A DNA stretch of 64,000 bases from Rhodovulum visakhapatnamense. Lineage in GTDB: Bacteria; Pseudomonadota; Alphaproteobacteria; Rhodobacterales; Rhodobacteraceae. Both the position numbers and the translations under genes were made by a program. Below are positions 38,498 through 42,258 of the stretch, one piece after another (position 1 is the stretch's first letter; each line of letters starts with the position of its first letter). The notes under the pieces are model-generated. The model had not been told where the DNA came from, searched no databases, and worked only from the letters and a program-made list of their open reading frames with translations. Location of the stretch: positions 36,888 to 100,887 of the forward strand of contig NZ_SOEB01000015.1 of NCBI RefSeq assembly GCF_004365965.1, written 5' to 3'.

Positions 38498-39910
38498 ATG
38501 GACATCGCCTTTCTTCTGAACGGAGAAAGAGTGGCTTTGACGGGTGTTGCGCCCACCGCGACGCTGCTCGACTGGCTGCGCGAGACACGCGGCCTCACCG
38601 GCACCAAGGAGGCCTGCCGCGAAGGCGATTGCGGCGCCTGCACGGTCATGGTGACCGATGCCGACGGCTCCCGCGCGCTCAATGCCTGCATCCTCTTCCT
38701 GCCGCAGATCCACGGCAAGGCGATCCGCACCGTCGAAGGTCTGGCAGCACCCGATGGCCGGCTGCATCCGGTGCAAGAAGCGCTGATCGACCATCACGGC
38801 AGCCAGTGCGGCTTTTGCACCCCGGGCTTCGCGGTCTCGATGGCGACGGCCCACAAGACGGGGGAAACCGATCTCGACAGCGCGCTCGCGGGCAATCTCT
38901 GCCGCTGCACCGGTTATGCCCCGATCCTGCGCGCGGCCGAGGCCGCCCGCCACGCCCCGGTCCCCGACTGGATCGAGGACGATGCCAGCTTCTTCTTGGC
39001 CGAAATACCCTCGGGGGGTGCCGATCCGCAGGATCGGCGGGGGGCGGACAGCCCCCCCGCCTTCCGCCCTGCCACCGCCGACGCGCTGGCCGCCTGGTAT
39101 GACGCCCATCCCGATGCCACGCTGATCGCAGGCGCCACAGATGTCGGGCTCTGGGTCACCAAGGGCCTGCGCGACCTCGGCCTGGTCGCCTTCCTGTCGG
39201 GCTGCGAGGACCTGAAACGGATCGAGACGACCGAAACCGAGATCCGCATCGGCGCGGGCGTCACGATCGCGCGGCTTCTCGATCTGATGCGCGCCCACCA
39301 CCCGCATTTCGCGCGGATGCTGACCCGCTTCGGCTCGGCCCAGGTCCGCGCCGCCGCGACGCTGGGCGGCAACATCGCCAACGGCTCGCCCATCGGCGAC
39401 AGCCCGCCCGCGCTGATCGCGCTGGGTGCCACCCTGCACCTGCGCAAGGGCGACACCCGCCGCGCCCTGCCGCTCGAGGACTTCTTTCTCGAGTATCGCA
39501 AGCAGGACCGGGCGCCCGGCGAATTCGTCGAGGCGGTGACGGTCCCGCGCCAGCCCGACACCTTGCGCTGCTACAAGCTCTCGAAACGCCGCGATCAGGA
39601 CATCTCGGCCGTGCTCGGCTGTTTCAACCTGACCCTGCGCGACGGCCGCATCGAAAGCGCCCGCATCGCCTTCGGCGGCATGGCCGGCATCCCGAAACGC
39701 GCCGGCGAAGTCGAGGCCGCGCTGATCGGACGGCCCTTCACCGAAACCACGCTCGAGGCCGCCCTGCCCGCCTTCGCGACCGATTTCCAGCCGATGTCCG
39801 ACATGCGTGCCTCGGCCGGATACCGGCTGCAGGCCGCCCGGAACATGTTGATGCGGCTCTGGCACGAAAGCCGGAACGAGCCCGCCGATATCGCCGAGGT
39901 CGCCCCGTGA
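38498..39910 (+). CDS. xdhA: Xanthine dehydrogenase small subunit (2Fe-2S and FAD), with embedded palindromic element
   Basis: A 470-residue subunit. Two [2Fe-2S] clusters are encoded by EACREGDCGACT and CGFCTPG/LCRCTGY in residues 1-150; the FAD domain follows (LGGNIANGSPIGDSPPALIA, then ISAVLGCFNLTL). Electrons pass from XdhB molybdenum through the clusters to FAD and NAD+. Between the two domains, at about residues 165-187, lie 23 codons contributed by a 69-bp palindromic element (minus orientation, 38989-39057) that stays in frame. Start ATG 38498. The gene overlaps xdhB by 4 nt. The enzyme oxidises hypoxanthine and xanthine to urate. Confidence 0.94.
   Translation: MDIAFLLNGERVALTGVAPTATLLDWLRETRGLTGTKEACREGDCGACTVMVTDADGSRALNACILFLPQIHGKAIRTVEGLAAPDGRLHPVQEALIDHHGSQCGFCTPGFAVSMATAHKTGETDLDSALAGNLCRCTGYAPILRAAEAARHAPVPDWIEDDASFFLAEIPSGGADPQDRRGADSPPAFRPATADALAAWYDAHPDATLIAGATDVGLWVTKGLRDLGLVAFLSGCEDLKRIETTETEIRIGAGVTIARLLDLMRAHHPHFARMLTRFGSAQVRAAATLGGNIANGSPIGDSPPALIALGATLHLRKGDTRRALPLEDFFLEYRKQDRAPGEFVEAVTVPRQPDTLRCYKLSKRRDQDISAVLGCFNLTLRDGRIESARIAFGGMAGIPKRAGEVEAALIGRPFTETTLEAALPAFATDFQPMSDMRASAGYRLQAARNMLMRLWHESRNEPADIAEVAP
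38989..39057 (-). repeat. 69-bp palindromic element inside xdhA
   Basis: Read on the minus strand it begins GGGGGGCTGTCCGCCCCCCG, continues with CCGATCC..GGATCGG and ends with the core GAGGGTATTTCGGCCAAGAA plus GAAG. Two hairpins are possible (GGGGGGC/GCCCCCC and CCGATCC/GGATCGG). It matches the copy in xdhB at 65 of 69 positions in opposite orientation and reads open through xdhA, adding 23 codons in the linker between the iron-sulfur and FAD domains. Confidence 0.85.
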
Positions 39911-42258
39911 GCGTGACGCATCCCCTGCCCCATGACGCGGCGCGCCTGCATGTGACCGGCGAGGCGCGCTATCTCGACGATATCCCGGCCCCGGCAGGCA
40001 CGCTGCACCTCGCCTTCGGCCTGTCCGAGGTCGCCCATGGCAGGGTTCTGACGATGGACCTCGCGCCGGTGCGCGCCGCCCCCGGGGTGGTGGCGGTGCT
40101 CGGGCCGGACGATCTCGACCCGATGCCCGACTGTTCGCCCTCGGCCCATGACGAGCCGCTGCTGGCACCCGGAGAGATCAGCTATTGCGGCCAGCCGCTG
40201 TTTCTGGTGATCGCCGACAGCCATCTTGCCGCCCGCAAGGCCGCGCGGCGCGCGGACGTGACCAGCGAGGACCGGCCCGCGATCCTGACGATCGACCAGG
40301 CGCTGGCCGCAAACAGCCGCTTCGAGGACGGGCCGCGGATCTGGGAACGGGGCGACGCGGCCGCGGCCATCGCGGGGGCTGCCCACCGGGTCGAGGGCGT
40401 GATCGAGATCGGCGGGCAGGAGCATTTCTACCTGGAAGGCCAGGCCGCGCTCGCCCTGCCGCAGGAGGGGGGCGACATGGTCATCCATGCCTCGACCCAG
40501 CACCCGTCCGAGATCCAGCACAAGGTCGCGGACGCGCTGGGCCTGCCGATGCATGCGGTCCGGGTCGAGGTGCGGCGCATGGGCGGGGCCTTTGGCGGCA
40601 AGGAAAGCCAGGGCAATGCGCTGGCCATCGCCTGCGCGCTGGCGGCGCGTGCGACCGGGCGGCCCTGCCGGATGCGCTATGACCGCGACGACGACATGGT
40701 CATCACCGGCAAGCGCCACGATTTCCGCATCCGCTATCGGGCGGGCACCGATGGCGAGGGCCGCCTCGAAGGCGTCGAGTTCGTCCAGTATACCCGCTGC
40801 GGCTGGGCGCAGGACCTGAGCCTGCCGGTCGCCGACCGGGCCATGCTGCATGCCGACAATGCCTATTTCCTGCCCGCCGTTCGGATCGAAAGCCACCGGC
40901 TGAAGACCCACACCCAGTCCGCAACCGCCTTTCGCGGCTTCGGCGGGCCGCAGGGAATGGTCGGCATCGAGCGGGTGATGGACCACATCGCCCATGCGCT
41001 GGCCCGCGATCCGCTGGAGGTGCGGCGGATCAACTACTATGACAGCGCCCCGGCCGGGGCTGGGGGGCTGTCTGCCCCCCGCCGATCCTCCGGATCGGCC
41101 CCCCCCGAGGGTATTTCCGCCAAGAAGAAGACGACCACGCCCTATGGGATGGAGGTCGAGGATTTCATGCTGCACGAGATGACGGCCGCACTGGCGGAGC
41201 GCGCCGATTATGCCGCGCGGCGGGCGGCGGTGGCCGAGTGGAACGCGCGGCATGCCGTGCTGAAGAAGGGGATCGCGCTGACGCCCGTGAAGTTCGGGAT
41301 TTCCTTCACGCTGAGCCACCTGAACCAGGCGGGCGCGCTGGTGCATGTCTATCAGGACGGGTCGGTCCATCTGAACCATGGCGGCACCGAGATGGGTCAG
41401 GGGCTGTTCCAGAAGGTGGCGCAGGTCGCGGCCAGCGCTTTCGGCCTGCCGGTCGGGGCGGTGAAGATCACCGCCACCGATACCGGCAAGGTTCCCAATA
41501 CCTCGGCCACCGCGGCCTCGTCGGGGTCCGACATGAACGGGATGGCGGTCAAGGCCGCCTGCGACGAGATCCGTGGCCGGATCGCCGCCCATCTGGCCGA
41601 GCTGCATCAGACCGAGCCCGCCGAGGTGCATTTCGCCGACGGCCGGGTCTTTGCCGGCGGCAACGAGATGAGCTTCGCCACGGCCGCGAAAAGCGCCTAT
41701 GAGGGCCGGGTGAGCCTCAGCGCCACCGGGTTTTACCGCACACCGGGGCTGAGCTGGGACCGGATCGCGGGCACCGGCCGGCCGTTCTTCTATTTCGCCT
41801 ATGGGGCGGCGGCGAGCGAGGTGGTGATCGACACGCTGACCGGCGAGAACCGGATCCTCAGGACCGACATCCTTCACGATGCGGGCGCAAGCCTGAACCC
41901 CGCGCTCGATATCGGCCAGATCGAGGGCGGCTTTGTGCAGGGCGCGGGCTGGCTGACCATGGAAGAGCTGGTCTGGGACGCCAAGGGGCGGCTGTCGACC
42001 CATGCGCCCTCGACCTACAAGATCCCGGCGGTCGGCGACCGGCCCGGCATCTTCAACGTGGCGCTCTGGGACGCGCCGAACCCGGCCGAGACGATCTACC
42101 GCTCGAAGGCGGTGGGCGAGCCGCCCTTCATGCTGGGCATTTCGGTCTTGATGGCGCTGTCCGACGCGGTCGCGGCCTGCGGCCCGGGCTATCCGGCGCT
42201 CGACGCCCCGGCGACGCCCGAACGCATCCTCGCCGCCATCGACAGGGTCCGGGCATGA
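39907..42258 (+). CDS. xdhB: Xanthine dehydrogenase large subunit (molybdopterin), with embedded palindromic element
   Basis: A 783-residue molybdopterin subunit. The cofactor and substrate sites include GGQEHFYLEGQAA, MGGAFGGKE near residue 225, TAFRGFGGPQG near 341, the GTEMGQGL block and the catalytic Glu in SKAVGEPPFML near the C-terminus. Codons 386-408 (41062-41130) are exactly the 69-bp element and encode GGLSAPRRSSGSAPPEGISA then KKK, in a loop after the NYYDS segment and before TTPYGMEVEDFM. The gene overlaps xdhA and xdhC by 4 nt each. Activity needs XdhC for sulfido-molybdenum cofactor insertion. Confidence 0.94.
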   Translation: MSVTHPLPHDAARLHVTGEARYLDDIPAPAGTLHLAFGLSEVAHGRVLTMDLAPVRAAPGVVAVLGPDDLDPMPDCSPSAHDEPLLAPGEISYCGQPLFLVIADSHLAARKAARRADVTSEDRPAILTIDQALAANSRFEDGPRIWERGDAAAAIAGAAHRVEGVIEIGGQEHFYLEGQAALALPQEGGDMVIHASTQHPSEIQHKVADALGLPMHAVRVEVRRMGGAFGGKESQGNALAIACALAARATGRPCRMRYDRDDDMVITGKRHDFRIRYRAGTDGEGRLEGVEFVQYTRCGWAQDLSLPVADRAMLHADNAYFLPAVRIESHRLKTHTQSATAFRGFGGPQGMVGIERVMDHIAHALARDPLEVRRINYYDSAPAGAGGLSAPRRSSGSAPPEGISAKKKTTTPYGMEVEDFMLHEMTAALAERADYAARRAAVAEWNARHAVLKKGIALTPVKFGISFTLSHLNQAGALVHVYQDGSVHLNHGGTEMGQGLFQKVAQVAASAFGLPVGAVKITATDTGKVPNTSATAASSGSDMNGMAVKAACDEIRGRIAAHLAELHQTEPAEVHFADGRVFAGGNEMSFATAAKSAYEGRVSLSATGFYRTPGLSWDRIAGTGRPFFYFAYGAAASEVVIDTLTGENRILRTDILHDAGASLNPALDIGQIEGGFVQGAGWLTMEELVWDAKGRLSTHAPSTYKIPAVGDRPGIFNVALWDAPNPAETIYRSKAVGEPPFMLGISVLMALSDAVAACGPGYPALDAPATPERILAAIDRVRA
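41062..41130 (+). repeat. 69-bp palindromic element inside xdhB (inverted copy)
   Basis: GGGGGGCTGTCTGCCCCCCG at the start and the core GAGGGTATTTCCGCCAAGAA plus GAAG at the end. It differs from the xdhA copy at 4 of 69 positions and lies about 2 kb away in opposite orientation. It occupies codons 386-408 precisely (start is codon position 1), contributing no stop. Read from the opposite strand, the same element encodes a different open peptide in xdhA. Confidence 0.85.

Follow-up and report, generated by a model that had tools for sequence, protein, structure and literature searches.

A 69-bp hairpin element in frame in xdhA and xdhB of Rhodovulum visakhapatnamense belongs to a mainly intergenic repeat family of the Rhodobacteraceae

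Abstract

Rhodovulum visakhapatnamense carries two copies of a 69-bp hairpin element, in frame and on opposite strands, within xdhA and xdhB, which encode two subunits of xanthine dehydrogenase. Here we describe this element in a stretch of 64,000 nucleotides (the window; assembly GCF_004365965.1, contig NZ_SOEB01000015.1, positions 36,888 to 100,887). It is a member of a hairpin-repeat family in the Rhodobacteraceae whose other examined copies are almost only intergenic. On balance we favour the reading that the xdh copies are in-frame members of this family, captured long ago at fixed places, and that the two have since been rewritten together, gene conversion or template switching being the probable process.

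The xdh genes and the element

The features on which the description rests are listed here in window coordinates, with the evidence for each in brackets.

38498..39910, + strand: xdhA, xanthine dehydrogenase small subunit with [2Fe-2S] and flavin adenine dinucleotide (FAD) domains (open reading frame, Pfam domains, match to 2w3r_A/1jro_A)
39907..42258, + strand: xdhB, molybdopterin-binding subunit (open reading frame, Pfam domains, match to 1jro_B)
38989..39057, + strand: copy A in xdhA, 69 bp, XdhA residues 164-187 (alignment to copy B; head at the same site in orthologues)
38989..39010, + strand: copy A head, CTTCTTCTTGGnnnAAATACCC (likeness to genome copies and orthologues)
39020..39038, + strand: copy A inner hairpin, 8-bp stem and 3-nt loop (folding, covariation, match to copy B)
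39039..39057, + strand: copy A tail hairpin, GGGGGGC-GGACA-GCCCCCC (folding, orthologues, covariation)
41062..41130, - strand: copy B in xdhB, 69 bp, XdhB residues 386-408 (alignment to copy A; single frame in 56/56 distinct head-bearing rows at up to 4 mismatches, host included)
41109..41130, - strand: copy B head (alignment to copy A, orthologues)
41081..41099, - strand: copy B inner hairpin, with the stem of copy A and a different loop (folding, stem comparison)
41062..41080, - strand: copy B tail hairpin (folding, orthologues)

The two genes overlap by four bases and the element interrupts neither reading frame (XdhA 470 aa, XdhB 783 aa). Alignment and the open reading frames bear out a preliminary description of this DNA, which had reported two 69-bp sequences identical at 65 of 69 positions, in frame and in opposite orientations; the similarity ends at both borders. 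Copies A and B form the longest inverted pair between 36000 and 46000 (86 nt, 87% complementary). Each element begins with the head CTTCTTCTTGGnnnAAATACCC, followed by TCGGGGGG, the inner hairpin (GCCGATCC-loop-GGATCGGC) and the tail hairpin GGGGGGC-nGACA-GCCCCCC. The two hairpins proposed earlier for each copy fold on both strands, with energies only mildly lower than those of shuffled sequences (z -1.2 to -2.5); stronger evidence for them comes from covariation between genomes. In the 28 aligned elements, out of 59, that were used for the count, all 7 pairs of the inner stem were altered on both sides in some sequence, and such both-side changes filled 31 cells compared with 10.6 in shuffles (0 of 500 shuffles did as well).

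All six frames of the element are free of stops, as had been remarked for the two frames in use; this openness is unremarkable alone, because 663 of 5000 random 69-mers from the window are equally open. Chance likeness of G+C-rich sequence is an explanation that we regard as already refuted: the folding energies lie near those of shuffles and would suit it, but a 23-base query taken from the head of copy A matched the window at up to 3 mismatches only twice (copy A itself and copy B) and 0 times in 100 shuffles, and the control segments given below speak the same way.

The placing of the two copies in interdomain regions, suggested in the same description, agrees with the Pfam domain borders. 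The XdhA element lies in the linker between Fer2_2 (ending at residue 147) and FAD_binding_5 (starting at 189), and the XdhB element in the loop between MoCoBD_1 (ending at 377) and MoCoBD_2 (starting at 429). In AlphaFold2 models built from 16 sequences, the predicted local distance difference test score (pLDDT) falls below 50 at residues 167-186 of XdhA (mean 81.0) and at 383-406 of XdhB (mean 74.6, with nine further low segments). Among the named records returned, the host XdhB is closest to that of Rhodovulum kholense (97% identity).

The repeat family in the host and in other genomes

A search of the host genome for further copies, which the preliminary description had proposed, showed the element to be repeated. 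A 77-base query around copy A gave 46 matches at E<=1, with 40 of 96 first-look candidates scored. With 3 mismatches allowed, the 17-base head matched 87 times and its reversed control 2 times; the exact head pattern occurred 61 times and the reversed pattern 0 times. Across the 61 genomes searched, 30 contained the exact pattern. In the host genus it was present in 14 of 16 genomes, counting the host, at up to 102 copies. Elsewhere in the family it occurred in 8 of 21, and in the rest of the class in 8 of 24 genomes, each of these last with a single match that may be due to chance.

The host loci examined contained 73 places fitting a relaxed head and 72 after removal of one chance match, an apparent in-gene copy in an rbcL-like gene (the gene we presume to be rbcL). 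Only 2 of these 72 copies lie inside genes, namely those in xdhA and xdhB. Three other apparent in-gene copies, called by a codon-score gene caller, were rejected; each was judged, without homology search, to be a head lying shortly before the true start of the gene. The 66 plainly intergenic copies lie between 30 convergent, 33 codirectional and 3 divergent gene pairs (raw counts, with no background mix of gene pairs), and 63 of them face the 3' end of a gene. Heads occur 11 times in inverted pairs, with 18-32 bases between the 17-base cores. Full-type copies, with head, inner and tail hairpin, number four in the host, of which two are those in xdh, and their number varies between genomes.

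In ten other genomes, 66 copies were placed (head plus CTCGGGGG, or inner and tail parts) at loci picked around listed places. Outside called genes lie 64 of them, between 31 convergent, 26 codirectional and 5 divergent pairs, with 2 having one neighbour; for the other 2, called within genes at 30 and 58 nt from the assigned starts, the start itself has probably been misplaced.

Among 62 full-type copies, 4 are followed on the head-to-tail strand by 8 nt with at least 4 T, and an intrinsic terminator was rejected for lack of a T tract on that strand, the only one counted. Rfam covariance models gave no match at E<=1 in 38700-41400. Over the whole window Rfam matched only a cobalamin riboswitch, at 2068-2264 (- strand; 109 bits). 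Searches of the open-licence literature of PubMed Central (PMC), a scope outside which most subscription papers fall, turned up no description of the hairpin family.

Several short head copies of the host (e.g. C2:236216 and C6:92816) run on beyond the head as ATGACGC, which holds the complement of the CGTC tag seen in CGTC repeats. Another head copy (G000:C21:43198, L205, where G000 is the host) stands in the short gap between dnaN-like and recF-like genes, which we take to be dnaN and recF from their translated sequences.

Shared sites in orthologues

The orthologue rows comprised 30 loci together with 80 stretches, the best among 590 confirmed, with the host and five duplicates included. 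A head at up to 3 mismatches is present at the XdhA linker in 28 of 101 rows (25 of 96 distinct) and at the XdhB loop in 54 of 110 rows (50 of 105 distinct), whereas of 1734 control segments from other parts of these genes 1 has such a head; 17 distinct genomes have both. On the opposite strand no head at up to 3 mismatches was found at either site (101 XdhA and 110 XdhB rows), and at 4 mismatches there were 0 of 101 and 3 of 110. At up to 4 mismatches the xdhB heads are read in one frame in 60 of 60 rows (56 of 56 distinct), and the xdhA heads in three frames, with 25, 3 and 1 rows (22, 3 and 1 among 26 distinct). Segment length and inner sequence vary among orthologues, many of which lack the segments.

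The preliminary description had pictured an insertion, and segments absent from related species would have agreed with it. The comparison went the other way for the site and the head: both are shared by orthologues of many genera, and recent insertion within the genes was rejected on this ground. One old insertion is suggested by the shared place and strand, and in xdhB by the shared frame also. The xdhB copy would then have come from a common ancestor and been lost in many lineages.

An XdhAB tree was built from 94 rows with the insert columns removed; it omits four duplicates, eight more distant element-free rows and rows lacking a near-complete XdhA. At up to 4 mismatches, 31 of the 94 rows have neither copy and 45 exactly one, and in these rows xdhA and xdhB nonetheless remain alignable over almost their full extent.

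Related segments are also present at both places in PDB chains 1jro_B and 2w3r_A (RGGLSAPPSPPEPIATKK; FTLAQLSSGVRGQ), known here from protein sequence alone. We take entries 1jro and 2w3r to be the xanthine dehydrogenase of Rhodobacter capsulatus. In the material consulted, which did not extend to the structure papers, these segments are nowhere described as a repeat.

Two further observations concern the same places. A second peptide unit, [ED]DL[ATN]SRG, recurs in the XdhB loop of 12 distinct orthologues (L114, L118, L122, L126, L128, L133, L135, L139, L141, L147, L162 and L168), some of which have it next to the element, and the XdhA linker of L127 holds one similar unit. At locus L064 (genome G015) most of the middle of the xdhB element has been lost in frame, leaving GGLSARKK, and the xdhA copy retains head, inner and tail hairpin.

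Positional stability

Copies of the repeat appear hardly to move between close species. For the sister genome G014, 30 of 74 heads were fetched and 29 of these lie at the orthologous place and in the same orientation as in the host, with 1 undecided where the flank falls outside the host loci compared. For G010, 30 of 93 heads were fetched: 12 are orthologous and in the same orientation, 4 lie near a head of the other orientation, 1 corresponds to a flank without a head, and 13 are undecided for the same reason. The Y1 transposase (PF01797) was found in 7 of 37 genomes searched and in neither the host nor 14 of its 15 congeners.

These counts bear on the proposal that a mobile element inserts repeatedly and recently into the xdh genes, in the manner of the Rickettsia palindromic elements (RPEs), to which the preliminary description had likened the element in speaking of a self-spreading repeat. 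Patchy presence, the three xdhA frames and the differing numbers of full-type copies would be expected of such an element. Close heads on the opposite strand are nevertheless absent from both sites, xdhB keeps a single frame, the copies examined in the sister genome are almost all in place, the host and nearly all congeners lack the transposase, and copies within genes amount to 2 of 72 in the host and 0-2 of 66 in the ten other genomes. Spread through protein genes is not borne out, and we judge the proposal improbable.

Conservation of nucleotides rather than peptides

Conservation is at the level of nucleotides and not of peptides. The peptides of the two copies are unrelated, as had been noted from the outset, and xdhA orthologues read the same DNA in three frames. 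In XdhB loops chosen by protein motif only, isoleucine is encoded by ATT in 37 of 38, compared with 597 of 3391 (18%) elsewhere in XdhB; likewise the tail-hairpin serine is TCT in 16 of 19 rows, chosen by head match, compared with 4.4%. It is very doubtful that selection acts on the peptides as parts of the enzyme, with the likeness in DNA as a by-product. The related segments at both places in the enzyme of PDB 1jro/2w3r favour that idea, but the peptides are unrelated between subunits, the three xdhA frames and the retention of uncommon codons speak against it, and so do the pLDDT below 50 and the absence of the segments from many orthologues. The element peptides would rather be tolerated as disordered loops.

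Concerted change of the two copies and of genome variants

Ten genomes with the inner stem in both genes were considered, R. kholense rows not among them, and nine were used in the stem comparison, L063 being dropped as a congener of the host. The mean normalised distance between A and B stems is 0.132 within a genome and 0.45 between genomes, where A-A and B-B distances are 0.443 and 0.44. Only 2 of 362,880 permutations of the A-B pairing, the true one counted, do as well, phylogeny being ignored. Other full-type copies of the tested genomes have mostly different stems by eye. At L101 and L109 the two copies also differ by paired stem changes, and at L131 the xdhA head is degraded.

The head also has variants specific to a genome, such as CTTCTTCTGTT in Tropicimonas (G068). 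A search of 18 genomes gave matches in 14, and the 12 with copies outside xdh were compared over 19 positions. The xdhB head differs from the nearest copy of its own genome by 0.75 mismatches, compared with 3.29 for other genomes, and by mean copy the values are 1.59 and 3.68; 0 of 100,000 permutations, again with phylogeny ignored, did as well in either case. In 10 of the 12 genomes the xdhB head agrees with the variant of its own genome. As a separate observation, two head variants occur together in G061 and in G074, as if two subfamilies existed side by side.

Because stems and heads match in this way, later rewriting in place is suggested. The two copies would be homogenised by conversion with each other and, at times, with copies elsewhere in the genome; the simplest process would be gene conversion or template switching across the 2 kb that separate the inverted pair. 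The intergenic copies, by analogy with the repetitive extragenic palindromes (REPs) and bacterial interspersed mosaic elements (BIMEs), would act at the ends of transcripts, on DNA or RNA.

Several observations weigh against capture followed by conversion. In 3 of the 9 genomes the A stem resembles one or two B stems of other genomes more closely than the B stem of the same genome. The xdh stem is shared, or nearly so, by 4 of 28 other copies in Rhodosalinus (G064), and by eye there is one near-likeness each in G067 and G068. The xdhB heads of G010 and G072 depart from the genome variant and that of G074 follows a minority variant. None of the permutation tests takes account of phylogeny. As to the hairpins, 25 of 500 shuffles reached the number of pairs with both-side changes, counted over both helices; of the inner-stem cells, 75% pair. 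Presence on the XdhAB tree is patchy, requiring at least 23 changes for xdhB and at least 14 for xdhA at up to 4 mismatches; gain and loss are indistinguishable there, and insertion may have been repeated, most of all in xdhA with its three frames. Finally, differences between A and B lie by eye mainly in loops and in free bases of the head, the stems mostly agreeing, and such stem agreement with loop variation could also be obtained by selection on the hairpins or on pairing of A with B.

This last point leads to the main rival, selection in place, in which a factor reading the site co-evolves with all copies, or the inverted copies pair in the xdhAB transcript, and gene conversion plays no part. 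It is suited by the agreement of stems where loops and free bases vary, by the matching of heads to the genome variant, by the compensatory stem changes and by the keeping of nucleotides rather than peptides. It sits poorly with the tree rows that have neither copy or only one and whose genes remain alignable nearly throughout; moreover, we know of no factor that reads the element site. We hold selection in place to be possible, if rather unlikely, and capture with later conversion remains the reading that we prefer.

A further proposal, which we put forward only tentatively, is that the hairpin site found at gene ends also functions at the nucleotide level within xdhA and xdhB, where the inverted copies interact and evolve as one unit, rewritten together with the whole family of the genome and irrespective of frame.

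Comparison with known repeat systems

From the parts of the literature consulted, the nearest known kinds are the RPEs and intragenic REPs (PMC10969869, PMC5656822, PMC3733652). RPEs, in the portion of the source used here, are short palindromic repeats of ~150 bp kept in frame in protein genes that are unrelated to one another, with nearly half of the copies in open reading frames (PMC10969869). The copies in xdhA and xdhB resemble them as palindromic repeats in frame within protein genes. They differ in that the xdh element occupies only these two genes, at sites common to many genera, with the other examined copies intergenic; the many unrelated genes typical of RPEs have no counterpart in the in-gene counts given above, both host cases being in xdhAB.

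REPs and BIMEs of the GTAG and CGTC families are described, in the part of the source available, as hairpin repeats that are mostly intergenic, often in inverted pairs and sometimes in genes (PMC3733652). The family of the xdh element is alike in its hairpins, its intergenic placing, its position at 3' ends and its inverted pairs. In contrast, the full-type element ends in CTTCTT and GCCCCCC and carries no GTAG or CGTC tag, and a transposase of the REP-associated tyrosine transposase (RAYT) type is absent from the host genome, for which reason a RAYT-driven REP was rejected. Some short copies have ATGAC(GC), which includes the complement of CGTC, just past the head. CGTC families occur, according to the same part of that source, in species of all alphaproteobacterial orders (PMC3733652), and its text, where the species list is given as a figure, mentions neither Rhodobacterales nor any of five genus names from this group. 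A distant link to CGTC repeats through the short copies may exist.

Miniature inverted-repeat transposable elements (MITEs) are likewise short non-coding repeats, and the inverted head pairs found elsewhere resemble terminal inverted repeats. The full-type element of xdh, however, has no terminal inverted repeats, and the copies appear stable in position.

Conclusions

Palindromes in coding sequence have so far been read as selfish insertions. Here a mostly extragenic repeat is kept in two subunits of one enzyme across many genera of one family, where it mostly agrees with the variant of the genome in question, and with the A and B copies matched within the genome. If the preferred reading of old capture and rewriting in step is true, the xdh genes would offer a natural, countable example of short inverted repeats, ~2 kb apart, that evolve in concert. 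The result also suggests that part of the sequence of a long-studied enzyme is derived from a repeat.

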